Source of the DNA: Paraburkholderia sp. Tr-20389
Lineage (GTDB): Bacteria; Pseudomonadota; Gammaproteobacteria; Burkholderiales; Burkholderiaceae
Assembly (NCBI RefSeq): GCF_017104565.1
Contig: NZ_JAAGPD010000009.1
Location: forward strand, 124,001 to 188,000
DNA length: 64,000 bases
Direction of reading: 5' to 3'
A program made the position numbers and the translations under genes. Positions 40,377-53,868 of the stretch are shown here, piece by piece; positions within the stretch are counted from its first letter, which is position 1, and each line of letters opens with the position of its first letter. The notes beneath the pieces were generated by a model. It was not told the DNA's origin, did not search any database, and saw only the letters and a list, made by a program, of their open reading frames with translations.

Positions 40377-40418
40377 GTTGCTGTTGCTGTTGCTGTGTTG
40401 TTGTTGTTGTTGTTGTTG
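40377..40418 (+). repeat. Trinucleotide microsatellite (TTG/CTG type)
   Basis: About 42 bp of TGC/TGT-TTG triplets, including six or so pure TTG units, lies just outside the left end of the palindromic element that follows manB. It is non-coding and could vary in length by slippage. Confidence 0.8.
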
Positions 40419-41060
40419 GCATCCGCGATTTGCCTTCGTAGTTCATGCGTTGCCCCTGTGCGGGGCTGCACTCACTTTCTTTGCCGCCGCAAAGAAAGTA
40501 AGCAAAGAAAGCGGGCTCACACCGCCAGTGCTAGTCGTTGCCTGCGGGCCCCCAACGGGTCCCGCACTCCACGCGGCAACTCATCGTTTTGCGCCCGTTG
40601 CCAGCGCCTCGAACAGGCGCATCACCCACTCCAGTCACCCGTAGCGCATTCAGCGGCAGCGAATCGTCTGCGCTGCCCAGGTGGCAAACTATGTGTAGGT
40701 TGTCGCACCGCATGCGTTCGCGCTCTTACGACACCGATCCGCTTTTCAGTCCGGAGTGGTGCACTTCCAGCGCGACGGCCTACACATGGTTTGCCACCTG
40801 GGCGGCGGTGGACGCCTGATAACGCAGTTCGTGACGCGGGAGTGTGAAGTGGGTGATGCGTGCAGTTAGCACGCTGGCAACGGGCGCAAACAAGCGCGTT
40901 GCCGCGAGGAGCGTAAGAACTGTTGGGGGCCCGCAGGCAAGAACACGGGCTGGCGGTGTGAGCCCGCTTTCTTTGCTTACTTTCTTTGCGGCGGCAAAGA
41001 AAGTGAGTGCCGCCCCGCACAGGGGCAACGCATGAACTACGACGTGAAACCGCGGATGCC
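40418..41060. repeat. Large palindromic intergenic element, copy A
   Basis: Nested inverted repeats fill the manB-waaC gap. Outer arms 40444-40528 and 40950-41034 are reverse complements at 84 of 85 positions. Inner arms (about 40672-40706 and 40774-40808) surround a central segment CCGGAGTGGTGCACTTCC shared by all four copies. Each outer arm contains its own 26-bp palindrome built on ACTTTCTTTGC/GCAAAGAAAGT. The outer ends GGCATCCGCG (40418) and CGCGGATGCC (41051) also pair. The short frames within are Arg/Ala-rich and differ between copies, so I see no protein gene. Confidence 0.9.
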
Positions 41061-41135
41061 AGCGGCAACTCATCGCGGATGCCAGCGATAGCTCACCGCG
41101 GATGCCATCGGCAACTCACCGCGGATGCCAGCGAA
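41051..41135 (+). repeat. 23-bp tandem repeat, about 3.6 units
   Basis: CGCGGATGCCA recurs at 41051, 41074, 41097 and 41120, exact 23-bp spacing, starting with the end motif of element copy A. The units look like an expansion of the element's terminal sequence. It ends about 140 bp before the waaC start. Confidence 0.85.
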
Positions 41136-41273
41136 AGAAAAAAACCGGCAACGCCGCGCCGCAGGCAAAAACCGAAGACAAAAAACCGGATTCCGCGCGC
41201 CCGGCAAAGACCGCGCTAAAATTGCGCTTTCAATGAAAACCCCCTTCACGCCGACCAATCGGCGTTCCCATTC

Positions 41274-42275
41274 TTGAGCGCGCAAAAGATACTAATCGTG
41301 AGAGTGTCGTCGCTGGGCGACGTCGTTCACAACATGCCCGTCATCGCCGATATTCGCCGCCGTCATCCCGATGCGCAGATTGACTGGCTCGTCGAGGAGA
41401 GTTTCGTCAAACTCGTCGAACTGGTTCACGGCGTCCGGCGCGCGATTCCGGTCTCGTTGCGGCGCTGGCGCAAGCGCATTCTTTCCGTCGACAACTGGCG
41501 CGAAATCGGCGCGTTCCGCCGCGCACTCGCGGCAGAAAACTACGATCTCGTCATCGACTGCCAGGGGCTCATCAAGACCGCGTGGGTCGCGAAGATGGCG
41601 CGCGGGCCGCTCGTCGGCCTCGGCAATCGAACGGACGGCGCGGGTTACGAATGGCCCGTGCGCTTCTTCTACGACCGTTGTGTGCCGATCGAGCCGCGCA
41701 CGCACGTCGTCGAACGTACACGGCAACTGGTGGCGGCAGCGCTAGGCGATCCCGCGCCGAAGCCCACCGACGAGATCGACTTCGGACTCGACACCAGCCG
41801 CGCAGCACTCGCGCTGTCGGAAGCACAGCTGAATCTTCCCGTGCCTTACGTGGTGTTCGTCCACGCGACGTCCCGCGCGGACAAGCAGTGGCCCGACGCC
41901 GCGTGGATCGAACTGGGCCAGACGCTCGTGCGGCGCGGCGCGTCGATCGTTCTGCCGTGGGGCAGCGACGCCGAACGCGCAACGAGCGAGCGCCTTGCGA
42001 AGGAGTTCGGCGCAGCCGCGATCGTGCCGCCGAAACTGTCGCTGCCCGCCGTGGTCGGACTGATCGAGGGCGCGTCGGCCACGGTCGGGGTTGATACAGG
42101 TCTGGTTCATATCGCAGCCGCGCTGAAGCGCCCGACTGTCGAGTTGTACAATTTCGCCACTTCATGGCGCACGGGCGGCTACTGGTCGCCGAACGTCGTG
42201 AATCTCGGCACGGCGGGCCAACCGCCGACGCTGCAGCAGGTGAAGTCCGCGCTGACCAGCTTCGGCCTGCTGTGA
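41274..42275 (+). CDS. waaC: LPS heptosyltransferase I
   Basis: 333 residues starting at TTG 41274; other starts would remove the conserved first strand KILIVRVSSLGDVVHNMPVI, which is diagnostic of the GT9 ADP-heptose family. Further motifs: CQGLIKTAWVAKMARG, VFVHATSRADKQWPDAAW and the C-terminal VGVDTGLVHIAAALKRPTV. It adds the first L-glycero-D-manno-heptose to Kdo of the lipid A-Kdo inner core. Upstream is the palindromic element with its tandem repeats; downstream kdoO follows after 30 bases and waaA after that, an inner-core cluster. The TTG start may keep expression low. Confidence 0.93.
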   Translation: MSAQKILIVRVSSLGDVVHNMPVIADIRRRHPDAQIDWLVEESFVKLVELVHGVRRAIPVSLRRWRKRILSVDNWREIGAFRRALAAENYDLVIDCQGLIKTAWVAKMARGPLVGLGNRTDGAGYEWPVRFFYDRCVPIEPRTHVVERTRQLVAAALGDPAPKPTDEIDFGLDTSRAALALSEAQLNLPVPYVVFVHATSRADKQWPDAAWIELGQTLVRRGASIVLPWGSDAERATSERLAKEFGAAAIVPPKLSLPAVVGLIEGASATVGVDTGLVHIAAALKRPTVELYNFATSWRTGGYWSPNVVNLGTAGQPPTLQQVKSALTSFGLL

Positions 42276-42305
42276 CGCGGCTTTATCCGCTTTGAAAAGG
42301 CGATC

Positions 42306-43190
42306 ATGAACGAATCCCAGATCATCGAAGTTGCAAGCGCCGACTGGCACGGCCAGGGTTTGTCGGTGCCGCGCGAGACGCTGCTCGCCGGCGTCGAACG
42401 CGGCAAGGTGCTGTATTTCCCGAACCTCGCGTTTGCGATCGAAGGCGGCGAACGTGCTCTGCTCGATCCCGCACTGGCTGACCCCAAGCGCAAGAACATC
42501 AGCCTCGCGCCGAACGGCGGCGCGCTGCACGGCGTGCTGGGCGATGCCGTCACGCAATCGGCCGTGCGCGCGCTGATTGCGCGCTATCAGTCGAATGCGC
42601 GGTCGCTCGTCGACGGCCTCTTTCCCGAGTACAAGGGCAAGCTGCGCGTCGCGCCGACCAGCTTGCGCCTGCATCAGGTGGAAACGCGCCAGACGTCGTG
42701 GCGCAAGGACGATAGCCGCCTGCACGTCGATGCATTCCCATCGCGTCCCAACTACGGCGAGCGCATCCTGCGCGTGTTCACGAACATCAATCCGGCCGGC
42801 GCGCCGCGCGTGTGGCGCGTCGGCGAACCGTTCGAAGATATGGCGAAGCGCTTTCTGCCGCGCATCAAACCGCAGATGCCGGGCTCGGCATGGCTGCTGA
42901 ATCTGCTGCACGTGACCAAGTCGACGCGCAGCGAGTACGACCATCTGATGCTGAATCTGCACGACGGCATGAAGGCCGATCTCGACTACCAGAAGGTGTC
43001 GCCGCAAGTGACGATGCCGTTCCCGCCGGGCAGCGTGTGGGTATGTTTCTCCGATCAGACATCGCATGCCGTGATGTCCGGCCAGTTCATGATGGAGCAG
43101 ACCTTCTTCTTGCCCGTCAAGTCGATGGTGCAGCCCGAGTGCGCACCGCTTGGCATTCTTGAGCGTCTGAAGGGCAGGGCGCTGGTTTGA
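42306..43190 (+). CDS. kdoO: Kdo hydroxylase, Fe(II)/2-oxoglutarate-dependent
   Basis: 294 residues. The metal triad is visible as H-x-D in SRLHVDAFPSRPNYGERIL (His140, Asp142) and a distal His in DQTSHAVMSGQF (His254), the pattern of 2-oxoglutarate oxygenases. This family converts Kdo to D-glycero-D-talo-oct-2-ulosonic acid (Ko) on the inner core, described in Burkholderia and Yersinia, where the gene sits with the core genes. Position between waaC and waaA fits that role exactly. It should act at the cytoplasmic face after Kdo transfer. No membrane anchor visible. Confidence 0.88.
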   Translation: MNESQIIEVASADWHGQGLSVPRETLLAGVERGKVLYFPNLAFAIEGGERALLDPALADPKRKNISLAPNGGALHGVLGDAVTQSAVRALIARYQSNARSLVDGLFPEYKGKLRVAPTSLRLHQVETRQTSWRKDDSRLHVDAFPSRPNYGERILRVFTNINPAGAPRVWRVGEPFEDMAKRFLPRIKPQMPGSAWLLNLLHVTKSTRSEYDHLMLNLHDGMKADLDYQKVSPQVTMPFPPGSVWVCFSDQTSHAVMSGQFMMEQTFFLPVKSMVQPECAPLGILERLKGRALV

Positions 43191-43290
43191 ACGGCGCGCT
43201 GCTTGTTCTGCTGAAAACATCGCGAGACACCGCTGCGGGCGTGTCCATGTCCGCTGTCATCACGCGCTTCATGTCGTGCATGGAGGCCCG

Positions 43291-44592
43291 ATGCTGAGGG
43301 CTGTCTATAACGCGTTGTGGTGGCTGGTCGCGCCGCTTGCGGTGCTGCGTCTTTTGATCCGTTCGCGCAAGGAGCGCGGCTATCGCGAGCATATCGGCGA
43401 GCGCTTCGGTTTCGGGCGCGGCCGCGTGCCCGAGGACGATACGCCGCTGATCTGGGTGCATGCGGTGTCGGTGGGCGAGACGCGGGCGGCGCAGCCGCTG
43501 GTCGAAGCGCTCATCAAGGCGAGGCCCGACGCGCGCATTCTGCTTACGCACATGACGCCGAGCGGCCGCGCAACGGGCGAGCAGATCTTTGGCGACCGCG
43601 TGTTGCGCTGCTATCTGCCGTACGACATGCCGCGGGCGGTGCGGCGTTTTCTGAAGGCATGGCGACCGTCCGTCGGTCTCGTGATGGAAACGGAAGTGTG
43701 GCCGACGCTGATCGACGAATGCCGGCGCGCGGACGTGCCGCTCGTGCTGACGAATGCGCGGATGTCGGAGCGCTCGTACCGGCGCGCGGCGAAGTTCGGC
43801 ACGGCGACGCGCGGCGTGTTCGGCGGCTTTGCGCGCGTGCTGGCGCAGAGTCCATCGGATGCTTCGCGGCTTTCATCGCTCGGCGCGCGCAACGTAGCGG
43901 TGCTCGGCAATCTCAAGTTCGACATGAACACGCCGCCCGAACTCGCGGCGCGCGGCCATGCGTGGCGCGCGGCGATCGGCACGCGTCCCGTGTGGGTCGC
44001 GGCGAGCACGCGCGAGGGCGAAGAGGAGCTGGTGCTGCAGGCATTCGCTGCGCTTGGCGTCGACGATGCGCTGCTGGTTGTCGTGCCGCGTCATCCGCAG
44101 CGCTTCAATGAAGTGGCGGCGCTGGTCGAAAAGAAGGATTTACGTTGCGTGCGGCGCTCGGCCTGGGCGCCGACGGGTGCGGTGGCGGCGGACGAAAGCG
44201 CCGTGCCCGAGTTGCCACGCGATGTGAAGGTGCTGCTGGGCGATTCGATGGGTGAGCTGGGTGCTTACTATGCTGCGTCGGATGTGGCGTTTATCGGCGG
44301 CAGTCTGCTGCCGTTGGGCGGGCAGAATCTGATCGAGGCATGCGGTGTGGGTGTGCCCGTGCTGATCGGGCCGCACGTGTTCAATTTTACGCAGGCCACG
44401 GCCGATGCTGTGGCTGCCGGCGCGTGTGTGCAGGTGAAAGATCCTGTCGATCTGGCCCGCGTCCTGCGGGAGTTGTTCGAGGACAAGCCTCGACGTGTTG
44501 CAATGGGGGGGGCGGCTTCTGCCTTCGCCGCTCGGCATAGGGGTGCTACTTCGCGCACCGTGGATGTGCTCACTACGCTGTTGCCTGGTTGA
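43291..44592 (+). CDS. waaA: 3-deoxy-D-manno-octulosonic acid transferase
   Basis: 433 residues from ATG 43291, with GGAGG five bases upstream (a GTG at 43276 is less likely). The N-terminal hydrophobic helix ALWWLVAPLAVLRLLI anchors it. Kdo transferase motifs: VHAVSVGETRAAQPL, METEVWPTLIDECRRADVPL, LGDSMGELGAYYAASDVAFIG and GGQNLIEACGVGVPVLIGP. It transfers Kdo from CMP-Kdo to lipid IVA, an essential step of LPS synthesis. Downstream lies a 1.4-kb gene-free repeat region before the convergent urease cluster. Confidence 0.95.
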   Translation: MLRAVYNALWWLVAPLAVLRLLIRSRKERGYREHIGERFGFGRGRVPEDDTPLIWVHAVSVGETRAAQPLVEALIKARPDARILLTHMTPSGRATGEQIFGDRVLRCYLPYDMPRAVRRFLKAWRPSVGLVMETEVWPTLIDECRRADVPLVLTNARMSERSYRRAAKFGTATRGVFGGFARVLAQSPSDASRLSSLGARNVAVLGNLKFDMNTPPELAARGHAWRAAIGTRPVWVAASTREGEEELVLQAFAALGVDDALLVVVPRHPQRFNEVAALVEKKDLRCVRRSAWAPTGAVAADESAVPELPRDVKVLLGDSMGELGAYYAASDVAFIGGSLLPLGGQNLIEACGVGVPVLIGPHVFNFTQATADAVAAGACVQVKDPVDLARVLRELFEDKPRRVAMGGAASAFAARHRGATSRTVDVLTTLLPG

Positions 44593-44689
44593 GTTGTGCT
44601 TTTTTTGATGTCTGCGACGCAGTCGCCATTCTTGCCTTCTCGGCGCGGGCTTCGCCTTTTAGTTTCTGCTCTGTGGTCTCGCTTTCGCT

Positions 44690-45236
44690 GGCGTCCGCGT
44701 TTTCGTGTTGGTAGTACATGCGTTGCCCCTGTGCGGGGCGGCACCTACTTTTCTTTGCAGCGGCAAAGAAAAGTAGGCAAAAGAAAGCCGCTCACACCGC
44801 CAGCACGTGTGATTGCCCAGGGGCTCTCAACGTCCCCGTCCCCCGCGCGGCAACGCATTGTTTTGCACCCGTTGCCAGCGCCTTGAACCGGCGCATCACC
44901 CACTCCAATCATCCGTAGCGCAGCCAGCGGCAGCGACCCGTTAGCGCCGCCCAGGTGGCAAACTGTGTGTAGGTCGTCGCGCCGTTTGCGTTGGCGCTTC
45001 TACGACACCGATCCCGCTTTTCAGTCCGGAGTGGTGCACTTCCGTTGCGACGGCCTGCACACAGTTTGCCACCTAGGCGGCAGTCGACTTCCTGGTAATG
45101 CGGTCCGTGATGCGGGAATGTGAAGCGGGTGATGCGTGCAGTTAGCACGCTGGCAACCGGCGCAAACGAGCACGATGCCGCGTGGAGCGTAAGAACTGTC
45201 GGGGGCCCGCAGGCAAGCACAAGAGCTGGCGGTGCT
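44690..45236. repeat. Large palindromic intergenic element, copy B (right arm missing)
   Basis: Left outer arm, central segment and inner arms match the other copies, but the sequence breaks off just after the right-hand CTGGCGGTG (about 45226-45234). It then jumps to the sequence that precedes the left end of the element (TTGCCTTCTCGGCGCGGGC), which is present at 44632 and again at 45237, exactly 605 bp apart. Copy B is therefore the first unit of a tandem duplication whose right outer arm was lost. Confidence 0.85.
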
Positions 45237-45294
45237 TTGCCTTCTCGGCGCGGGCTTCGCCTTTTAGTTTCCGTCCCGTGGTCTCGCTTTCGCT

Positions 45295-45936
45295 GGCATC
45301 CGCGCTTTGCCTTCGTAGTTCATGCGTTGCCCCTGTGCGGGGCGGCACCTACTTTTCTTTGCCGCGGCAAAGAAAAGTAGGCAAAAGAAAGCCGCTCACA
45401 CCGCCAGCCCGTGTGATTGCCCAGGAGCCCCATCGTCCCCGTCCTTCTCGCAGCAACACGTTGTTTTCCGCCCGTTGCCAACGCACCGAACCGGCGCAGC
45501 ACCCACTCCAATTACCCGCAGTCAGCCAGCGGCAGCGAATCGTCCGCGCCGCCCAGGTGGCAAACTGTGTGTAGGTTGTCGCGCCGTATGCGTTGGCGAT
45601 CCTACGACACCGATCCCGCTTTTCAGTCCGGAGTGGTGCACTTCCGTTGCGACGGCCTGCACACAGTTTGCCACCTGGGCGGCAGTCGAACTCTGGTAAC
45701 GCAGGCCGTGACGCGGGAGTGCGAAGCGGGTGATGCGTGAGTGAGCACACTGGCAACGGGCGCGAACGAGCACGTTGCCGCGTGGAGCGTAAGAACTGGT
45801 GGGGGCCCGCAGGCAAAAACAAGGATTGGCGGTGTGAGCCCGCTTTCTTTGCTTACTTTCTTTGCGGCGGCAAAGAAAGTGAGTGCCGCCCCGCACAGGG
45901 GCAACGCATGAACTACGAAGGCAAATCGCGGATGCC
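45295..45936. repeat. Large palindromic intergenic element, copy C
   Basis: Complete 642-bp copy. Left outer arm is the type-2 variant (CCTACTTTTCTTTGC with paired GCAAAGAAAAGTAGG); right outer arm is type 1 (ACTTTCTTTGC/GCAAAGAAAGT), so the arms are less well matched to each other than in copy A, while each local hairpin stays perfect. Central motif CCGGAGTGGTGCACTTCC is present, as are the inner arms (CACACAGTTTGCCACCTGGG on the right). Confidence 0.9.
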
Positions 45937-45970
45937 AGCAAAAAAACCCCAAAGAAAAGCCAGAATGCCG

Positions 45971-46057
45971 ACTACGTCGCAGACATCAAAAAACCAAACA
46001 GCGACTGCGTCGCAGACATCAAAAAACCAAACAGCGACTGCGTCGCAGACAAAAAAA
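45971..46057. repeat. 33-bp tandem repeat next to ureG
   Basis: ACTRCGTCGCAGAC recurs at 45971, 46004 and 46037 (33-bp period, about 2.6 units), separated by A-rich ACATCAAAAAACC. It ends four bases before the ureG stop codon and on the minus strand could serve as a degenerate T-rich transcription end. Confidence 0.85.
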
Positions 46058-46060
46058 ACC

Positions 46061-46702
46061 TCACACCACCAGCAACCCCTTGCGTTCAATAAACGAAATC
46101 ACATCGGCCAGCCCTTCAAGCGCCTTGAGATTACACATGACAAAAGGCCGCGCGCCGCGCATCTTCGCGGCATCAGACGCCATCACGTCGAGATTCGCGC
46201 CGACCATAGGCGCCAGATCCGTCTTGTTGATGACGAGCAGATCGGACTTCGTAATACCAGGCCCGCCCTTGCGCGGAATCTTCTCGCCGCCAGCGACATC
46301 GATCACATAAATCGTCAGATCGGACAACTCAGGACTGAACGTCGCGGCAAGATTATCGCCACCCGATTCAATAAACACGATGTCGGCATCAGGAAAGCGC
46401 CCAAGCATCCGGTCCACCGCTTCCAGGTTGATGGAAGCATCCTCGCGGATCGCCGTATGCGGACAGCCGCCCGTCTCGACACCCATGATGCGCTCGGCGG
46501 GCAGCGCGCCCGCCACCGTCAGCAGGCGCTGGTCTTCCTTCGTGTAGATGTCGTTGGTGATCGCGACGAGGTCGTACTTGTCGCGCATCGCCTTGCACAG
46601 CATTTCAAGCAGCGTCGTCTTGCCGGAGCCGACAGGCCCGCCGACGCCCACACGCAGCGGCGGCAGTTTCTTCGTGCGATGCATCGTATGAGGTGCGTTC
46701 AT
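46061..46702 (-). CDS. ureG: Urease accessory GTPase UreG
   Basis: 213 residues from ATG 46702 ([12 protein letters not shown]); the longer frame to 47086 is only read-through over ureF. SIMIBI GTPase with P-loop [17 protein letters not shown], metal motif [10 protein letters not shown] (Cys-Pro-His binds Ni or Zn), [18 protein letters not shown] and base motif VINKTDLAP. With UreD, UreF and UreE it delivers nickel and activates UreC through lysine carbamylation. Last gene of the urease operon; convergent with waaA across the repeat region. Confidence 0.95.
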
Positions 46703-46728
46703 GATTCGATGGAAAGAAAAGCAAAAGG

Positions 46729-47409
46729 CTATGAGCGGAAAAGCCGCGAATACTGCGACTCGTGACGCGCCGACAGAATGCCGAGTTGCGGCGCGAAGGT
46801 ATTGATATCGTCGGGCGACGTGGCGAGCGCCTGCTTGACGGCAGCATCGATCGGCTCGCGCAGCGCGACGATGATGCGCTGTCCGGCAAGCTGTCCGAGC
46901 GGCACAGCCTTCAACGCAGCCGCCGCCTGGTTCTCGACCCAGCTGAATGCATAAGCGGCGAGGGCGGCATCGGTGGCGGCGTCGTGCGCGAATGCGGCGA
47001 ACGCGAAGGCCGTCGGCTGCCCGATCGGCGTCATCGATGCGAGCGTCGCGCGCCGCCCATCGTCGCCCCATTCGAGCGATGCGCACAACTGCCGCAACGA
47101 CCAGCCCATCTGTTCCGTCTCGCGCCGCAATTCCGCCGATTCGCGGCTCGCGAGAAACTCGCGGTTCGCCTCAGCCAACCCGGACCGATCATGCGCGCGC
47201 CAACGTTCGATCTGATGCGCGAGAAACGGCAGCTCGCCATGCGCAAGCACATCCGACAGACCGCTTCTGATCCACGCGCAAGCCGTCTCGGCATCGGTGA
47301 CGAACTGCGCTTCGATGGCCGCTTCGAGCCCCTGCGAATAGCTGAACGCACCGATCGGCAGCGCCGGCGATGCGAGATGCAGCAGCGCAGTCAGTTCAGC
47401 GATGCGCAT
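46729..47409 (-). CDS. ureF: Urease accessory protein UreF
   Basis: 226 residues from ATG 47409, overlapping the ureE end by 14 bases. All-alpha protein with the conserved opening [25 protein letters not shown] and [18 protein letters not shown]. UreF bridges UreD and UreG in the urease activation complex and gates nickel transfer. The frame is open further upstream to 47595, but that part is the His-codon-rich 3' end of ureE read in another frame. Confidence 0.95.
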
Positions 47410-48028
47410 GTCGATGGCCGTGGTCATGATCGTGACCACACGACGAACCGCAATCGCCATGATCGTGACCATGAGCGTGAGCATGCGAATGATCGTGCGA
47501 GTGCGTATGCCCATGATGCTCGCCATACACCTGCTGCGCGAGCGCATAGTCTTCGGCAAACGTCTCGTCGTGACCATGCCGATGGCCGCCGCCATACGCG
47601 CCCGTTTCGGGCTGGAACGGCATCTCGACCTGATCGACGGAAGCGCCGAGCCGCTTGAGCATATCGGCGAGCACAGGATCGTATTCGAGCTTCAGATAAT
47701 CCGCGCCGACTTCGACGGGCGTGTGCCGGTTGCCGAGGTGATACGCAGCGCGCGTCAGCGTCAGCACGTCGGGCGCGCGCACGTACAGCACCGATTCAGG
47801 CGCCGCGACCACGCGTACCAGACCGCCATCGTCGGCGACGAGCACATCGCCGTCGCGCAACACCGTGCCGCGCGGCAGCACCAGCGCGATTGCTTCGCCG
47901 TTGTCGAGCGTGGCGGCGAGGCGGCTCTTGCAGCGCGCATCGAACGCCAGCGTGAGCGTCGGTGCGCGTTTGATCAGGACGGGCGCAAGTTTGATATGTG
48001 CGCCCAACAGCTTGTCGATCGTTCGCAT
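47396..48028 (-). CDS. ureE: Urease nickel metallochaperone UreE
   Basis: 210 residues. N-terminal beta domain ([38 protein letters not shown]) and ferredoxin-like middle with the conserved [12 protein letters not shown] nickel site. From about residue 148 the tail is extremely His-rich (HRHGHDETF, then [21 protein letters not shown] and a [18 protein letters not shown] end), about 20 histidines and two cysteines. Such tails store several nickel ions. Only one base separates the ureC stop from the ureE start. Confidence 0.95.
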
Positions 48029-48029
48029 G

Positions 48030-49736
48030 TCAGAACAGGAAATAGCGTTGCGCCATCGGCAGGACTTTCGCCGGCTCGCAGGTCAGCAACTGTCCATCGG
48101 CGATCACCTGATACGTCTCGGGATCGACGCTGATCGACGGCTGCCACGCGTTGTGGATCATGTGCGCCTTCGAGACGCTGCGGCAGTTCTTCACTGCAAC
48201 GATACGCTTGCTCAGGCCGTAGCGCCCGGCAATGTTCGCATCGAGCGCCATCTGCGAAACGAAGGTCAGCGAGGTGCGCCCCAGGGCGCCGCCGCGCGTG
48301 CCGAACATCTCGCGATAATGCACGGGCTGCGGCGTCGGAATCGACGCATTCGGGTCGCCCATCTGCGCCATCGCGATCATGCCGCCCTTCAGGATCAGCG
48401 CAGGCTTGACGCCGAAGAACGCCGGTTCCCAGAACACGATATCGGCCCATTTGCCCGGCTCGATCGAACCGACTTCGTGCGCGATGCCATGCGTGAGCGC
48501 CGGATTGATCGTGTACTTCGCGACATAGCGCTTCGCGCGGAAGTTGTCGTTGCGCGCATTGTCCTCGGGCAGCGCGCCACGCTGCACCTTCATCTTGTGC
48601 GCGGTCTGCCACGTGCGGATGATCACTTCGCCGACCCGGCCCATCGCCTGCGAATCGGACGAGATCATCGACAGCGCGCCGAGATCGTGAAGGATGTCTT
48701 CGGCCGCGATCGTCTCGCGGCGAATGCGCGATTCGGCGAACGCGATGTCTTCCGCAATCGACGGGTCGAGGTGATGGCAGACCATCAGCATGTCGAGATG
48801 TTCGTCGAGCGTGTTGACGGTGTACGGGCGCGTCGGATTCGTCGACGACGGCAGCACGTTCGCTTCGCCGCAGACCTTGATGATGTCGGGCGCGTGGCCG
48901 CCGCCCGCGCCTTCCGTGTGATACGTGTGGATCGTGCGGCCCTTGAACGCGGCCACCGTCGCTTCGACGAAGCCCGCTTCGTTCAAGGTATCGGTGTGGA
49001 TCGCGACCTGCGTGTCGGTATCGTCGGCAACGGAGAGACAGTTGTCGATCGCGGCGGGCGTCGTGCCCCAGTCCTCGTGCAGCTTCAGGCCGATCGCGCC
49101 CGCCGCGATCTGTTCGAGCGCGGGCTGCGGCTGGCTCACATTGCCCTTGCCGAGAAAGCCGAGATTCATCGGATAGCCGTCGGCCGCCTGCAGCATGCGC
49201 TCCATATGCCACGGCCCAGGCGTGCAGGTCGTCGCATTGGTGCCCGTCGCGGGGCCCGTGCCGCCGCCCAGCATCGTCGTTACGCCGCTCGCGAGCGCTT
49301 CGTCGATCTGCTGCGGGCTGATGAAGTGAATGTGCGTGTCGATACCGCCTGCCGTCACGATCATCCCTTCGCCCGCGATCACTTCCGTTGCCGCGCCGAT
49401 CGCGATCGTCACGCCGGGTTGAATGTCGGGATTGCCCGCCTTGCCGATCGCCGCGATGCGGCCGTTCTTGATGCCGATGTCGGCCTTGACGATGCCCCAG
49501 TGGTCGAGAATCAGCGCGTTCGTCACGACGGTATCGACCACGTCGGCCGCAACGCGCTGCGACTGGCCCATGCCGTCGCGAATCACCTTGCCGCCGCCGA
49601 ACTTCACTTCCTCGCCGTAGATCGTGTAGTCGCGCTCGACTTCGATCAGCAGGTCCGTATCCGCGAGACGCACGCGGTCGCCCGTCGTCGGGCCGAACAT
49701 TTCCGCGTACGCGCGGCGGCCAATGCGTAATGTCAT
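48030..49736 (-). CDS. ureC: Urease alpha subunit
   Basis: 568 residues, standard length. Nickel ligands and catalytic residues are all present: His135 and His137 ([11 protein letters not shown]), carbamylated Lys218 (GLKLHEDWG), His220, His247 ([10 protein letters not shown]), His273 ([10 protein letters not shown]), the flap Cys-His-His (MVCHHLDPS, 320-322) and Asp361 ([13 protein letters not shown]). It hydrolyses urea to ammonia and carbamate in the cytoplasm. Co-transcribed with ureA, ureB and the accessory genes. The downstream 64 bp to ureB contains short CGCGAA repeats without evident function. Confidence 0.97.
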
Positions 49737-49800
49737 GTTTGAGAGGTTCCTGAATAGGTCCGCGAATGTGCCCGCGAACAGGCCCGCGAATGCGCAGCTA

Positions 49801-50106
49801 TCACAGCTTGCCCATCACCTTGCCATTGAAGCCATAGACGACGCGATCGCCCGCCAGCGCGACGAGTTCGACGGTGCGTTCCTGGCCCGGCTCGAAGCGC
49901 ACGGCAGTGCCTGCCGCAATGTTCAAGCGGAAGCCGCGCGCAGTTTCGCGATCGAATGACAGCGCCGCGTTGACTTCGTAGAAGTGGTAGTGCGAGCCGA
50001 CCTGCACCGGACGATCGCCCGTGTTCGACACTGTGACCGAAACGGTCGCGCGCCCTGCGTTGAGTTCGAGTTCGCCGTCGTCGGTAATCAGTTCGCCTGG
50101 GATCAT
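49801..50106 (-). CDS. ureB: Urease beta subunit
   Basis: 101 residues, separate from ureA as is usual in Burkholderiaceae. Typical opening [19 protein letters not shown] and [17 protein letters not shown], then [19 protein letters not shown]. Structural subunit of the (alpha-beta-gamma)3 enzyme. It starts ten bases after the ureA stop. Confidence 0.96.
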
Positions 50107-50116
50107 GCGCGCCTCG

Positions 50117-50419
50117 TCACGGAATGGGGTGATGGACGGTCACGAGCTTGGTGCCGTCGGGGAAGGTGGCTTCGACCTGGATATCGGGAATCATCTCGGG
50201 CACGCCGTCCATCACGTCGTCGCGCGTGAGCAGCGTGGTGCCGTAGTGCATGACTTCGGCGACCGTCTTGCCGTCGCGCGCGGCTTCCATCAGCGCCGCC
50301 GTGATAAATGCGACGGCTTCCGGATAGTTGAGCTTGAGTCCGCGTGCGCGGCGCCGTTCCGCGAGCAGCGCGGCCGTGAAGATCAGGAGTTTGTCTCTTT
50401 CGCGTGGAGTGAGCTTCAT
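50117..50419 (-). CDS. ureA: Urease gamma subunit
   Basis: 100 residues from ATG 50419 ([20 protein letters not shown]); longer frames upstream are read-through. Conserved [34 protein letters not shown] and the TVHHPIP end. It begins 118 bp after the end of an amino-acid-type binding-protein gene that separates it from ureD. This placement is unusual, since ureD is normally next to ureA. Confidence 0.96.
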
Positions 50420-50537
50420 CGCATTCGTTGTGTGGCGCCCGCATGGAGGCGGGCGCGTGAGTCGTTCTATGGATGCATGGGCGGCGCACGTCGTACGCAG
50501 CGCCGCCTCACGATACCAGCTTCTACCGACGCACCGC

Positions 50538-51338
50538 TTACAGATCGGCCGGCAGTCCCGTGCCGAACCATTTCTTCGACATCGCGTTGAGCGTGCCGTC
50601 GTGCTTCGCTTGCGCGATGGCGGCATCGACCTTCTGCTGCAGACGCGGCTCGTTCTTGTTGAGCCCCACGAAGCACGGTGAGTTCTTGATCACGAACTTC
50701 GGTTCCGGACGGCGCGGCGGGTTCTTCGCGAGAATCGCCGCGGCGACGATATTGCCTGCCGCGATCAGTTGCACCTGGCCCGACAGGAACGCGGCGATGG
50801 TCGCGTTGTTGTCTTCGAAGCGTTTGATGGTCGCATTGGGCGCCATCTGCGTGAGCGCGATTTCTTCGAGCGCGCCGCGCGTTGCGCCGACGGTCTTGCC
50901 CGTCAGATCGGCGGGGCTGCTCACCTTGACGTCTGCGGGACCGAATACGCCTTGATAGTAGGGCGCATAGGCCGACGAAAAGTCGATGACCTTCTCGCGC
51001 TCCGCTGTCTTGCCGAGCGACGAGATCACAAGATCGACCTTGTTGGTTTGCAGATACGGAATCCGGTTCGCGCTGTTGACGGGTACCAGTTCGAGCTTCA
51101 CGTTCATCGACTTCGCGAGCAGCGCGGCCGTATCGATGTCGTAGCCTTGCGGCTTCAGATCCGGACCGACCGAGCCGAACGGCGGATAGTCTTCGGGCAC
51201 GGCGACCTTGAGGACGCCTGCCTTCGCGATGTTGTCGAGTGCGTCGGCGTGCGCGAAGGGCGCGGCGAGCAGGAGTGGTGCGAGCAGCAGCGTGGCGAGC
51301 CACGCGCGGCGCGGGAGATGGGCGGTTGTACAGGTCAT
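50538..51338 (-). CDS. Periplasmic solute-binding protein (amino-acid type, SBP_bac_3)
   Basis: 266 residues from ATG 51338. Sec signal peptide with hydrophobic core [18 protein letters not shown], mature start [10 protein letters not shown]. Family 3 binding-protein pattern: [51 protein letters not shown] (aligned with the classic signature), and [16 protein letters not shown]. It should bind an amino acid or similar small N compound in the periplasm, but no permease or ATPase partner is adjacent. It sits between ureD and ureA in the same orientation; the gap to ureD contains a strong hairpin. Perhaps recruited to the nitrogen regulon or shared with a transporter elsewhere. Confidence 0.88.
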
Positions 51339-51375
51339 GTCGGCGATGGGCTTCGGCGTGTGATTTTTAGCGGAT

Positions 51376-51409
51376 CTCGCAGACGCATGTCGAGGCATGC
51401 GTCTGCGAG
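51376..51409. promoter_or_regulatory. 14-bp perfect stem-loop between ureD and the binding-protein gene
   Basis: CTCGCAGACGCATG pairs perfectly with CATGCGTCTGCGAG across a six-base loop. No T-run follows on the minus strand, so it is not a standard intrinsic terminator. In the operon transcript it could act in RNA processing, stabilise the downstream mRNA or partly block read-through. Confidence 0.6.
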
Positions 51410-51532
51410 GCGCCAATAGCAGCAAAGGCTATGCCATGCTTTATGTGAAAGGCTTGGCCGATTGTCGCGCAGCGCTGTTGCACCACGTCGACGCGCAGAC
51501 GTGCCCGATGATGGTGCGCCGAGGTTGATCGC

Positions 51533-52414
51533 TCAGGTCGTCCAGAGACGCAGCGGCGTCGCCTCGACACGATGCACGATTGGCCGCAGATGCAACCAGC
51601 ATTGGGTCAACGCATGCTGGAGCGTTTCCATCGATCGCGCGACGCCTCGCACGATCAGCACGCCGGGACAGACACACGATGCAGCGGCGCGGATCGTATC
51701 GTCGAAGGGCAACTGCGCGGTGACCGACTCGGCGAGCGCGTCGTCGCATCGAGGGCTGACGGCCCACAGCGTGCCGAATGCAGGGAAGTGCGCGAGGCCT
51801 TGCGGCGCGTTGCGCAACGGGTCGCCGGCGGCGAGCTTCGTGCGCTCGAACCACAACGGCTGACCATCGGCGCCGACGATGCGTGAGACCGCGCGCAGTT
51901 GACCCGCCGACCATGTTTCGCCCGCCGCCTGCCGGCCGAGCTGGGTTGCGTCCCAGCCGAGCGCCGTCGCGCCTTCGTCGAGTGAGAGCGTGAAGTCGAG
52001 CGCAGCGTTCGCGTGATCGAAGACGATGTTGTTCTGGGGCAGCCAGTCGAGCTTCGCGTTCGCGCCGACGCGAATCGCGATGCGCTGTTGCGCCGTGCGC
52101 CCATTGGACTTGTACCACTTGGTTGCACCGGGCGTCGTCAGCACGGCATGCGTGTCGGCGCCGAGGCGAATGTCGATATCGAGCCGGTCGCCACCTGCCA
52201 CGCCGCCGGGCGGATGCACGATGACGGCGTGGCAGATCGACGGTCCCTCGGGATAGAGGGGCCGTTGCAGTCGCAGGGGCCCTTCGTGCAGCCGGTGCGC
52301 GAGGGTCGTGCGTTCGCCGTGCCGGGCGAAGCCGAGTTCGAGCCGCGCGCGCCATTGGGCGTGCGAGGGGTCGTCGATGGAGGCGAGTGTGGCGTGCTGT
52401 TCGTGTAGCGACAT
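51533..52414 (-). CDS. ureD: Urease accessory protein UreD
   Basis: 293 residues, no signal peptide. Family hallmarks: [56 protein letters not shown] and [16 protein letters not shown]. UreD (UreH) forms the scaffold that binds apo-urease and channels nickel from UreG. It starts 36 bp after the end of urtE, so the transporter and urease genes most likely share one transcript. The next gene downstream is an unrelated binding protein rather than ureA. Confidence 0.95.
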
Positions 52415-52450
52415 GCGGCGAGGATAGCAGTTGATGGCGTTCCTCGGGCG

Positions 52451-53143
52451 TCACACCGCGATCAGATGGCGCACGCCGTCGGCGTCCATATTGACGCCTT
52501 CGCCGCCTGCGACGATCTCGCCGCGGCTCATCACCCAGTAGCGGTCGGCGATGGCTTTGGCGAAGTCGTAGTACTGCTCGACGAGCAACACGGTGAGACC
52601 CATTTCCTCAACGAGTTGCCTGAGGGTTCTGCCGATGTCCTGGATGATCGACGGTTGAATGCCTTCTGTCGGTTCATCGAGGATCAGCAATTGCGGTTCG
52701 CTCATGAGTGCGCGGCCGATGGCCAGTTGTTGCTGCTGACCGCCGGACAGGTCGCCGCCGCGGCGTGATTTCATGTCCTTCAGGACGGGGAAGAGTTCGT
52801 AGATTCTGTCCGGGATTTTCTTCGGAGCTTTTTTGCTGGCTGCGCCCACCAGCAGGTTTTCTTCGATCGTCAGTCTCGGGAAGATGTCCCGGCCTTGTGG
52901 CACATAAGCGAGTCCCTGCGCGACTCGGGCGTGCGGAGCGAGTTTTGTTATCGGCGTGTCACGCCAGCTGATTTCGCCGGTTTTGATGGGGGCTACGCCC
53001 ATCAGGGTTCTTAATAGCGTCGTCTTGCCGACGCCATTTCGCCCTAGCAGCACGGTCAGTTTTCCGTCCGGTACGGTTAGCTTCACATTTCTTAATATGT
53101 GGCTGCCGCCGTAGTACTGGTTCAGGTTTTCTACTTCAAGCAT
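52451..53143 (-). CDS. urtE: Urea ABC transporter ATPase UrtE
   Basis: 230 residues, LivF-like. Walker A LLGRNGVGKTTLLR, Q-loop YVPQGRDIFPRLT, signature LSGGQQQQLAIGRAL, Walker B LLILDEPTEGIQPS, switch His replaced by the family's LLVEQYYDFA (Gln in place of His is usual in LivF/UrtE). It powers high-affinity urea import together with UrtD. It is separated from urtD by 814 bp containing palindromic element copy D, whereas the other urt genes overlap or abut. Confidence 0.95.
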   Translation of the reverse strand: MLEVENLNQYYGGSHILRNVKLTVPDGKLTVLLGRNGVGKTTLLRTLMGVAPIKTGEISWRDTPITKLAPHARVAQGLAYVPQGRDIFPRLTIEENLLVGAASKKAPKKIPDRIYELFPVLKDMKSRRGGDLSGGQQQQLAIGRALMSEPQLLILDEPTEGIQPSIIQDIGRTLRQLVEEMGLTVLLVEQYYDFAKAIADRYWVMSRGEIVAGGEGVNMDADGVRHLIAV

Positions 53144-53210
53144 GTCGGTTCCTTTTTTTGCCTTCTTGCGGCAGGCGGCCTTTTTTTTGCTGGTCTTTCT
53201 TTGTTGTCGC

Positions 53211-53856
53211 TGGCGTTCGCGATATGTTGTCTCGCTTCATGCGTTGCCCCTGTGCGGGGCGGCACCTACTTTTCTTTGCAGCGGCAAAGAAAAGTAGGCA
53301 AAAGAAAGCCGCTCACACCGCCAACTCTTGTGCTTGCCTGCGGGCCCCCAACGGGTCCCGCACTCCACACGGCAACACGTTGCTTTGCGCCCGTTGCCAG
53401 CACCTTGATCCGGCGCATCACCCACTCCAGTCACCCGCAGGCAGCCAGCGGCAGCGATTCGTCAGCGCCGCCCAGGTGGCAAACTGTGTGTAGGTTGTCG
53501 CACCGCATCCATCGGCGCTTCTACGACACCGATCCGCTTTTCAGTCCGGAGTGGTGCACTTCCATCTCGACAACCTACACACAGTTTGCCACCTGGGCGG
53601 CGGTCGATTTCTGCTAACGCGGTCCGTGACGCGGGAGTGCGAAGTGGGTGATGCGTGCAGTTAGCACGATGGCAACGCGCAAAAAATAGCGCGTTGCCGC
53701 GTGGAGTGCGGGACCGGTTGGGGGCCCGCAGGCAATGACTAGCATTAGCGGTGTTAGCCCGCTTTCTTTGCTTACTTTCTTTGCGGCGGCAAAGAAAGTA
53801 AGTGCCGCCCCGCACAGGGGCAACGCTAGCAAACCAGAAGCAAAACCGCGGATGCC
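53211..53856. repeat. Large palindromic intergenic element, copy D
   Basis: Complete copy of about 646 bp. The inner arms match perfectly over GGCAAACTGTGTGTAGG and its reverse complement, and the central CCGGAGTGGTGCACTTCC is present (53544-53570 region). The left outer arm is type 2 (CCTACTTTTCTTTGC) and the right outer arm type 1 (ACTTTCTTTGC), as in copy C. Ends GGCGTTCGCG and CGCGGATGCC are as in the other copies. Confidence 0.9.
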
Positions 53857-53868
53857 AGCGAACGCCCT

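Follow-up and report, generated by a model that had tools for sequence, protein, structure and literature searches.

Four large nested palindromes in a 64,000-nucleotide stretch of Paraburkholderia sp. Tr-20389 (hereafter the window) are members of a composite extragenic palindrome family whose ~650-bp elements combine two inward-reading ~90-bp arms bearing hairpins, a self-complementary interior and a clade-specific centre. The copies, of which the 9.0-Mb host genome holds ~110, undergo ectopic gene conversion in place, with short tracts that range from tens of bp to roughly 100 bp. A bidirectional RNA 3′-end element is the function we prefer for this family, and the elements may mark transcript ends. 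No published name for the element was recognised in the freely available papers searched.

Architecture and distribution of the palindromes

The four palindromes lie, to within 1 base, where an initial annotation of the same sequence had placed them (A, 40418-41060; B, 44690-45236; C, 45295-45936; D, 53212-53856). The ends extend another 3 bp outward at either side, as GCTGGCATCCGCG and CGCGGATGCCAGC; copy D starts with GGCGTTCGCG. On the + strand, defined as that of the centre motif, copies A (40415..41063, 649 bp), C (45292..45939, 648 bp) and D (53209..53859, 651 bp) are complete, while copy B (44687..45236, +) lacks its right end, as its description as truncated had implied; beyond it come a repeat of copy B's left flank and, next, copy C. 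Copy A is flanked by same-direction genes, presumably phosphomannomutase-like and heptosyltransferase-like, copy C lies between convergent genes that we take to be kdtA-like and ureG-like, and copy D between same-direction genes, presumably for two ABC-transporter ATPases. The site of copy D is also occupied by elements in the genomes of a sister species (G408) and a more distant relative (G398).

The exact centre CCGGAGTGGTGCACTTCC, previously called invariant, is present in all four copies, and the inner arms, put at ~35 bp, measure 35-36 bp in each. Without assignment to a strand, they span 40671..40807 in copy A (36 bp each, 32/36 paired; centre 40750-40768), 44946..45081 in copy B (centre 45025-45043), 45548..45683 in copy C (centre 45627-45645) and 53466..53602 in copy D (35 nt, 100% complementary; centre 53545-53563). 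In copy A imperfect outer arms reach ~198 nt (86%), past the ~85 bp given initially. Over the outer 85 positions, copy A agrees ungapped at 80/85 rather than the 84/85 reported before; the values for copies C (67/85) and D (48/85) arise because arm lengths differ. The arm core, exemplified by the left arm of copy B (44722..44771, +), consists of a GC hairpin (GTTGCCCC-TGTGC-GGGGCGGC), a T-rich stretch and a second hairpin (CCTACTTTTCTTTGC..GCAAAGAAAAGTAGG). This pattern recurs, reading inward, in the left and right arms of copy C (45326..45375, +; 45857..45905, -), and is found in the right arm of copy A (40981..41029, -) and in both arms of copy D (53243..53292, +; 53776..53824, -); the left arm of copy A has no match to the exact pattern. 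Six matches occur in the window, compared with none in 100 shuffles. Copy C, folded as suggested at the outset, reached -433 kcal/mol, whereas 20 shuffles averaged -267 (z -15.5). In keeping with the earlier view that no protein is credible here, 0/89 host copies lie within a gene called by a home-made gene caller; a protein-coding role was rejected, as no copy falls inside a called gene in the host or in other species.

The search for further copies, also proposed earlier, returned 112 centres genome-wide at <=3 mismatches (3 for a reversed-pattern control). Two of 91 extracted centres were left out before alignment, giving 89 host copies, 85 of which are 645-654 bp long, and most host copies carry the inverted terminal repeat GCTGGCATCCGCG. 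Element ends vary between clades, with arms retained. A 20-base outer-arm pattern has matches in 81/398 family genomes (control, 0), with 13/60 sampled same-genus genomes lacking one. The arm is conserved across Paraburkholderia and Caballeronia, with identities of 90-100%, mostly 95-100%, among the best matches listed, where the kdtA of the same genomes is 78-83% identical to that of the window. In a plasmid collection, full-length copies are found on seven Paraburkholderia megaplasmids, and one more at 88% coverage in P. phymatum. The family was not found in E. coli, and a search for a phage origin gave 0 matches in 50,697 phage records and 0 exact arm matches in viral contigs.

Exchange between copies and retention of pairing

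Among the 89 host copies, linkage disequilibrium has an r2 of 0.28 at 1-3 bp but of 0.015-0.018 once sites lie more than 100 bp apart (null, 0.012); in 69 G408 copies it falls from 0.46 to 0.015-0.026 (null, 0.016). Exchange is incomplete: the correlation of 0.66 between the distance matrices of two interior segments (200-280, 360-450) shows that part of the history or age of whole copies persists. When all 69 G408 copies were offered as alternatives, the nearest relative of every host copy (89/89) was another host copy. An orthology comparison using 91/112 host centres and 69/115 G408 centres yielded 28 orthologous pairs, whose mean identity is 0.835 against 0.822 for non-orthologous pairs and whose interiors have the same orientation at 12 loci and the inverted one at 16. 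IS insertions were observed in some copies. The suggestion that the palindrome is a recombination site thus gains support in a sense that was not foreseen, namely gene conversion, inversion and IS insertion among copies.

Single conversion tracts can be seen in two strains of P. caribensis, in which 5/5 elements occupy common places. The elements are 0.88-0.95 identical between strains, compared with 0.98-0.996 for nine of ten flanks, and the element differences are clustered in patchy tracts. One 95-bp tract is 98.9% identical to a copy ~40 kb away on the same record, while the counterparts in the other strain are at 86.3% and 83.0%. For a second tract, a donor search in the plasmid collection, which holds no main chromosomes, found only the tract itself.

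Divergence of the arms without retained pairing, which would have spoken against the palindromes as described, is not clearly seen. Interiors in other species are self-complementary (z 8 to 60 versus shuffles in 28 elements, a foreign element containing a stretch of N being left out here and in the base-composition analysis below), but the long arms of host copies mostly lack copy-by-copy covariation, with a complementarity of 0.7435 against 0.742 when shuffled. Covariation in the host genome is confined to the outer 30 bp (z 6.8) and, more weakly, the adjacent 30 bp (z 2.7), and columns 210-260 are less complementary than shuffled (z -5.2). Palindrome repair within each copy was not seen, apart from these outer segments and a slight linkage excess at mirror sites (r2 0.021 vs 0.015). 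The best partner of an element's half is its own other half in only 3/28 elements of other species, because halves of related elements fit too. A paired hairpin is retained despite sequence change in 168/175 parsed host arms and 115/128 arms elsewhere; these local hairpins stay paired via double changes, and perfectly paired variants occur. Mismatch counts show no excess of G-U over A-C (757 vs 807) and therefore no RNA-strand signal, and selection on a one-stranded RNA was rejected.

The arm as a candidate transcript-end signal

The arm is homologous to the unit of Rfam family RF02421 (Bp1_684), which has 132 matches in the host genome at E<=0.01 and none in 14 control genomes; unlike the element, RF02421 models one 113-nt unit, and not a paired nested ~650-bp structure, its copy number or its conversion. 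No match in the window attains the gathering score (44 bits), copy C giving two sub-threshold outward matches of 26-28 bits (45281-45358, -; 45873-45960, +). A solo arm in the host, however, scores 47 bits, above that threshold. In eight genomes, drawn from two genera, a solo arm occupies one common site that we take to lie between two pyruvate-dehydrogenase (pdh) genes, and the best RF02421 match lies between two operon genes in 8/10 genomes having matches. Four genomes grouped as g12, presumably Burkholderia, have 2-4 matches each. Solo arms face the transcription of the upstream gene in 17/21 cases; six of these 17 represent the one pdh site, and 11/15 remain when they are excluded.

Full elements favour gene 3′ ends. 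Of 87 classified host copies, 48 lie in convergent, 36 in tandem and 3 in divergent gaps, and 38 classified elements of other species divide 17/18/3, against 15 convergent, 88 tandem and 54 divergent among other gaps of at least 100 bp, a baseline drawn from other species' loci with the home-made gene caller, where a position between two called genes could not be assigned to 13/51 elements. Since arms face incoming transcription and 48/87 copies are convergent, we prefer the bidirectional 3′-end reading, and the earlier idea of a structured RNA that blocks transcription appears plausible on such indirect evidence. The same 3′ and convergent preference would equally be expected if copies inserted at other places were just deleterious. 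The left arms of copies B and C carry a terminator-like hairpin, but a 1.5-kb scan found seven terminator-like sites where 2.7 are expected, just two of them at the arm GC hairpin. The T-rich stretch 3′ of this hairpin is interrupted (TACTTTTCTTT) and doubles as one side of the second hairpin, and would therefore make a poor intrinsic terminator. Rho-dependent terminators work through C-rich, G-poor RNA that is unstructured. Reading inward, C exceeds G on both sides of 89/89 host copies, and the region folds strongly, as in copy C; the excess is weak in several other-species interiors, being <=0.00 in 3/27 left and 1/27 right halves.

Proposed mechanism and competing explanations

In the mechanism we propose, the palindrome would extrude or stall as a DNA hairpin, which may be broken by SbcCD-type processing or provoke template switching. 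Repair could then be templated by any other copy, in either orientation because the arms are inverted repeats, the possible outcomes being conversion, inversion, hybrid copies and, occasionally, loss that leaves just the terminal repeats. RNA entering from either side would meet the GC hairpin, a U-rich stretch and the second long hairpin before reading into a C-rich, G-poor interior, clearest in the host's clade, which might end or stabilise the transcripts of the genes on either side and shield convergent operons from each other. Taken whole, this combination of break- or template-switch-driven conversion with a two-way transcript-end function is reasonably probable. More tentatively, one can sketch a history, possible though doubtful, in which a single pdh intercistronic hairpin was doubled into a giant palindrome that, in certain Paraburkholderia and Caballeronia, spread to as many as 100-180 sites as a bidirectional 3′-end element, its own DNA structure driving continuous ectopic conversion such that the copies form nearly one recombining population, the interior changing as a whole and the arm being kept.

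The family could instead be a non-autonomous transposon of MITE or REPIN type that is still active and served by a transposase in trans, its copies alike through recent spread. The mobile-element reading of the initial annotation has in its favour the >100 copies and the inverted terminal repeat, and G408 indeed has no copies at sites A and B/C, with just short gaps at window copy sites in several more distant relatives. Both G408 sites nevertheless retain terminal-repeat remnants, and the more distant G398 carries copies there, which gives the two the look of losses; exact fused-end sites are absent from the host, G408 and G398, this pattern allowing no mismatch and missing the G408 remnant. 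The insertion duplications whose count had been advised did not appear beyond 2 bp, as 86 flank pairs show no direct-repeat excess at 3-6, 8 or 9 bp (offsets 0-4), only one of 2-bp repeats (5.8% vs 2.0%). For Y1_Tnp, the only transposase family covered, there are one match in the host, one in G408 and two in G398, none with an element within 1.5 kb; the host relative, whose catalytic motif we take to be lost, scores 52 bits on NCBIfam NF047646, below the REP-transposase cut-off of 80. Mobilisation by a tyrosine transposase was rejected on these degenerate relatives. Ends that differ by clade while arms are kept, and the five of five common loci in P. caribensis, where copies stay put, also argue against active movement, as does the near-absence of linkage, since whole-copy spread predicts linkage along the length. 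Ongoing transposition is unsupported and, as the full account, improbable; movement may explain the original spread only.

Alternatively, the elements may have no function, being old palindromes that are tolerated nowhere but behind genes and that recombination homogenises since they are repetitive and break-prone. Repetition alone would explain conversion, inversion and IS insertion, and the missing RNA-strand signal, the same-genus genomes without the arm pattern and the two apparent losses in G408 fit as well. We consider this reading rather unlikely, given arms better conserved than kdtA among the best matches listed, hairpins that stay paired via double changes, a solo arm held at one site across two genera and the tendency of solo arms to face transcription. 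That the copies serve as genes or decoys of a trans-acting sRNA is suggested by the 132 RF02421 matches in the host against none in the controls, and by PMC3521395, in which Bp1_Cand684 is among RT-PCR-validated sRNAs, with a possible trans-acting role. PMC3521395 also reports relatives in Actinobacteria, Cyanobacteria and Firmicutes; the 14 control genomes yielded none. The intra-operon position of best matches, as expected of a cis element, the sub-threshold score of copy C and the lack of promoter-like sites in the 1.5-kb stretch with copies B and C, where chance would give just 0.2, make such a source decidedly improbable. A role as DNA site for some protein that organises the nucleoid or chromosome would accord with the conserved arm and centre and with the contig distribution in G408, where the 100 listed of 115 centres sit on contigs of 3.7, 3.2 and 2.7 Mb, the smallest carrying few, but the random interior orientation between sister species leaves it very doubtful.

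Relation to known repeats

Dispersed bacterial repeats are usually taken as mobile or inert. MITEs, Correia elements and ERIC/IRU resemble the present family in being non-coding, with inverted ends and many intergenic copies, whereas the element is much longer and is replaced in place rather than observed to move; it has terminal inverted repeats, with ends varying by clade, but, among the lengths examined (2-6, 8 and 9 bp), no target-site duplication beyond a possible one of 2 bp. REP, BIME and REPIN sequences of E. coli, Pseudomonas and others share with it a hairpin unit that occurs singly or in inverted pairs, >100 extragenic copies mostly at gene 3′ ends, and insertion by IS elements. REP units, however, are 20-40 bp with an unpaired GTAG or CGTC tag (PMC3733652), a description that the element's unit does not fit: it is a ~90-bp two-hairpin unit within a ~650-bp nested palindrome, for which no intact RAYT was found and which evolves by short-tract conversion. 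The word "Burkholderia" is absent from the main text of PMC3733652, PMC2817692 and PMC12306157.

Linkage among ~100 unlinked copies decays as in a recombining population, and single tracts, one with a likely donor, can be picked out in two strains. How often ectopic conversion occurs, over what tract lengths and by which enzymes thus becomes directly measurable in a natural system. A repeat whose own hairpin provokes exchange would offer a simple explanation for the concerted evolution of dispersed repeats, and the chain from an Rfam sRNA through a conserved operon hairpin to genome-wide paired elements suggests a cis function for the RF02421 family.

A dispersed family of nested palindromes

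All four palindrome copies described in the initial annotation are present in the window, at 40415..41063 (copy A), 44687..45236 (copy B, truncated), 45292..45939 (copy C) and 53209..53859 (copy D), each with the exact centre it had called invariant. Further copies, which it had left to a genome-wide search, were recovered as 112 centres (≤3 mismatches; 3 for a control) from the Tr-20389 genome (8,997,065 bases in 129 contigs), of which 91 distinct centres were extracted and 89 aligned. The length between end motifs is 645–654 bp in 85 of these 89 copies, the exceptions being copy B, one copy whose ends are doubled, and two split by an insertion sequence. The consensus starts with TTTCGCTGGCATCCGCG and finishes with CGCGGATGCCAGCGAAA; conservation is high in the outer arms, lower across the more variable interior, and high again in the inner arms, which flank a conserved centre. 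When the two ends of a copy are compared, agreement is above expectation in the outermost 30 bp (0.793 vs 0.737, z 6.8) and slightly so in the next 30 bp inward (z 2.7). Beyond the outer 60 bp no excess agreement between the two halves was detected in these copies, and in one segment they agree less than expected (z −5.2).

The arms, outer units of ~90 bp facing inward, carry a GC hairpin (GTTGCCCC-TGTGC-GGGGCGGC) followed by a T-rich stretch that doubles as one side of a second hairpin. This second hairpin has two main alleles in Tr-20389, TTACTTT..AAAGTAA and CTACTTTT..AAAAGTAG. Pairing over the tested part of the stem is perfect in 168 of 175 parsed arms (178 in total), with no hybrids of the two alleles among the 175. 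At 80 loci from named other species, 115 of 128 arms have a perfectly paired stem of 10 bp or longer, and variants such as CTACTTCTCTTTGC and CCCCTTTTCTTTGC are matched on both sides. Because the arms face inward, transcription from either neighbouring gene meets the same arm strand first.

The nearest kind of known repeat is the REP/BIME-type palindrome, from which the element differs in the size and tag of the unit, in the transposase, and in the way its copies evolve. A literature search, including one by the element's sequence letters, did not find it under any name. Y1_Tnp matches number one in Tr-20389, one in its sister species (G408) and two in a more distant relative (G398). The locus L226 of Tr-20389 encodes a relative of REP-associated tyrosine transposases (1459–2166; NF047646, 52 bits vs a cut-off of 80) that has apparently lost its catalytic residues and, by our reading, adjoins a gltB-like gene.

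Distribution and exchange between copies

A 20-base arm pattern (≤1 mismatch) matches 81 of 398 family genomes, its reversed control none of the 398. Within the genus it occurs in 47 of 60 sampled genomes (Tr-20389 included), and counts range from 1 to 360 per genome, with 254 in Tr-20389. Among named genomes, an exact 25-base sequence from the arm is found in at least 113 stretches, in records of Paraburkholderia, Caballeronia, and Burkholderia sp. The interior has full-length relatives at 76–78% identity in P. caribensis, P. largidicola, and two further Paraburkholderia records, at best at 84% and 81% in G408 and G398, and at ~70% in P. phymatum and two other relatives (G400 and G409). In most other matches among the 60 relatives searched, the arm alone matches and the interior is different; in one clade the element ends are TGTTGGCCTTTCCTTG instead. 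Interiors that differ nevertheless remain self-complementary (28 elements, z 8.2 to 60 vs shuffles). The self score of each of these 28 elements is at least about 1.7 times the median of its cross scores and ranks first for only three, because halves of related elements fit too. In the inferred Burkholderia genome G102 there is also a long palindrome, whose 302-nt arms are 91% complementary.

Arm identity in other genomes, for the best of the matches listed, is 90–100% (mostly 95–100%) over ~75–105 bp; kdtA in those genomes is 78–83% identical to the window's, and 88–91% in the four closest. Since homogenisation within genomes would not by itself slow divergence between them, we infer selection on the arm, or its horizontal spread.

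Linkage disequilibrium among the 89 copies (159 variable sites) falls from an r2 of 0.28 at 1–3 bp to 0.015–0.018 beyond 100 bp, close to a permutation null of 0.012, and in 69 G408 copies from 0.46 to 0.015–0.026 (null 0.016). Linkage thus decays with distance, and short tracts are therefore exchanged between copies. Under recurrent mutation alone, linkage would be low throughout, and under a transposition tree it would persist at every distance; the observed decay differs from both. Between two interior segments, the distance matrices of the Tr-20389 copies have a correlation of 0.66, so that some copy-wide history, or differences in age, remain.

Of 28 loci that match G408 on both flanks (86.5–93.8% identical), 16 have an inverted interior and 12 have it in matching orientation. 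Orthologous pairs have a mean identity of 0.835 and non-orthologous pairs 0.822; the orthologous G408 copy is never the top-ranked one (at best third of 69), and the closest relative of every Tr-20389 copy (89/89) is another Tr-20389 copy. A similar comparison was made within P. caribensis, using 200 kb from each of three megaplasmids (strains 852011, MWAP64, and MBA4). All five elements of 852011 have a counterpart in MWAP64; four have one in MBA4 by inner-arm scan, with the fifth arm pair at the expected place. Nine of ten flanks are 0.98–0.996 identical between 852011 and MWAP64, the tenth (0.72) being displaced by an insertion in MWAP64, vs 0.884–0.953 for the elements themselves. Identity in 50-bp blocks ranges from 0.71 to 1.0 in the four insertion-free elements, and in two alignments examined the ends are unchanged, the centre nearly so, and the differences clustered between. 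For one 95-bp tract, a match of 98.9% identity lies ~40 kb away in a different element of that record, in opposite orientation; the corresponding tract in the other strain is 86.3% identical, and the counterpart of the donor 83.0%. For a second tract examined, no donor was found. MBA4 also carries an inverted segment of ~1.9 kb between two adjacent elements.

Gene context and homology of the arm to Bp1_684

Of the 89 copies in Tr-20389, none lies within a called gene; 48 sit between convergent genes, 36 between tandem and 3 between divergent genes, with 2 unassigned. A simple codon score served to call genes. As a baseline, other gaps of at least 100 bp at 80 loci of other species were used (15 convergent, 88 tandem, 54 divergent); relative to these, convergent contexts are in excess (p 2e-14). 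The 38 classified elements of other species show the same bias (17 convergent, 18 tandem, 3 divergent; p 2e-6). Of the arms in paired elements, 60 of 86 are oriented to face transcription arriving from an upstream gene, as are 17 of 21 solo arms (single unpaired units); six of those 17 are at the pyruvate dehydrogenase (pdh) site.

Together with the hairpins, this context suggests that the arms are a putative bidirectional 3′-end signal acting on RNA. Copies B and C each have a terminator-like hairpin-plus-T structure at the left arm (7 sites in the whole scan vs 2.7 expected). All 89 copies are richer in C than in G when either side is read inward (averaging 0.25 and 0.26, against a background with a 95th percentile of 0.167 and a maximum of 0.366); in 27 elements from other genomes this bias is generally weaker (4 of 54 half-interiors at or below 0.00). 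Counting against a role in RNA, the T tract after the GC hairpin is interrupted and mismatches carry no strand signal. Long palindromes are unstable, and SbcCD is implicated in this instability; a DNA palindrome could provoke breaks or template switches, which would drive the conversion. A neutral, break-prone repeat with no function accounts for the conversion equally well, but explains less easily the conservation of the arm and the orientation of solo arms.

The arm is homologous to the Rfam sRNA family RF02421 (Bp1_684). No copy in the window reaches the gathering cut-off, the arms of copy C scoring 28.0 and 25.8 bits vs 44. At E ≤ 0.01, RF02421 has 132 matches in Tr-20389 and matches in 10 of 12 chosen genomes, with none in the two chosen genomes without arms (G171 and G150) or in 14 control genomes. 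In 8 of the 10 the best match is a solo arm at one orthologous place (loci L355–L360, L363, and L364, the last at 699–812 of Tr-20389 contig C57; eight genomes, two genera), whose neighbours, from the L355 translations, read as genes for dihydrolipoamide acetyltransferase and dihydrolipoamide dehydrogenase. This pdh solo arm is read in the operon's direction wherever the gene caller placed it (six loci), and the other two loci have the same arrangement by alignment. The dispersed elements may descend from such a pdh-type unit. Bp1_Cand684_SIPHT is listed in a table of validated sRNAs (PMC3521395). The pdh solo arm is possibly the cis identity of Bp1_684. Elsewhere in the window, 49298–49583 (+) matches RF02514, the 5′ ureB small RNA (108 bits; gathering 40).

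Probable element losses, with insertions and local rearrangements

The sister species G408 lacks the element at site A, where a single right end is left, and at site B/C, where the fused ends TTTTTTTCGCTGGCATCCGGATACCAGC remain; G398 has elements at all three sites (A, B/C, and D). Given these remnants and the filled G398 sites, palindrome loss is likelier than a pristine target, and both gaps look like losses. Exact fused-end sites were absent from Tr-20389, G408, and G398, and the same search found one short hairpin of element ends in each of G400 and G409. Beside element ends, direct repeats of 2 bp are in excess, and those of 3–6, 8 or 9 bp are not.

The elements are landing pads for insertion sequences. 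A ~1.17-kb sequence with a DDE transposase, IS5-like by our reading, lies in an arm of two Tr-20389 loci (L065 and L073) and of 14 of 70 G408 loci (L154–L223), and L235 carries, at about 41449–42927, a ~1.5-kb insertion, presumably IS66-like, in an arm-hairpin tip with an 8-bp duplication (GCGGCGGC).

At and beyond the end of copy A, the right end CGCGGATGCCA occurs four times in exact 23-bp steps (41052–41131), and in locus L007 the terminal 60 bp are repeated in 72-bp steps, as if palindrome ends grew outward. The truncated copy B and copy C probably arose by local duplication, since B's left flank and end (44631–44736) recur before C (45236–45340). An outer inverted layer lies beyond the element at 44601–44638 and 45956–45993 (38 nt, 89% complementary), and many copies are surrounded by similar layers, GTCTGCGACGC-type and T-rich/A-rich.
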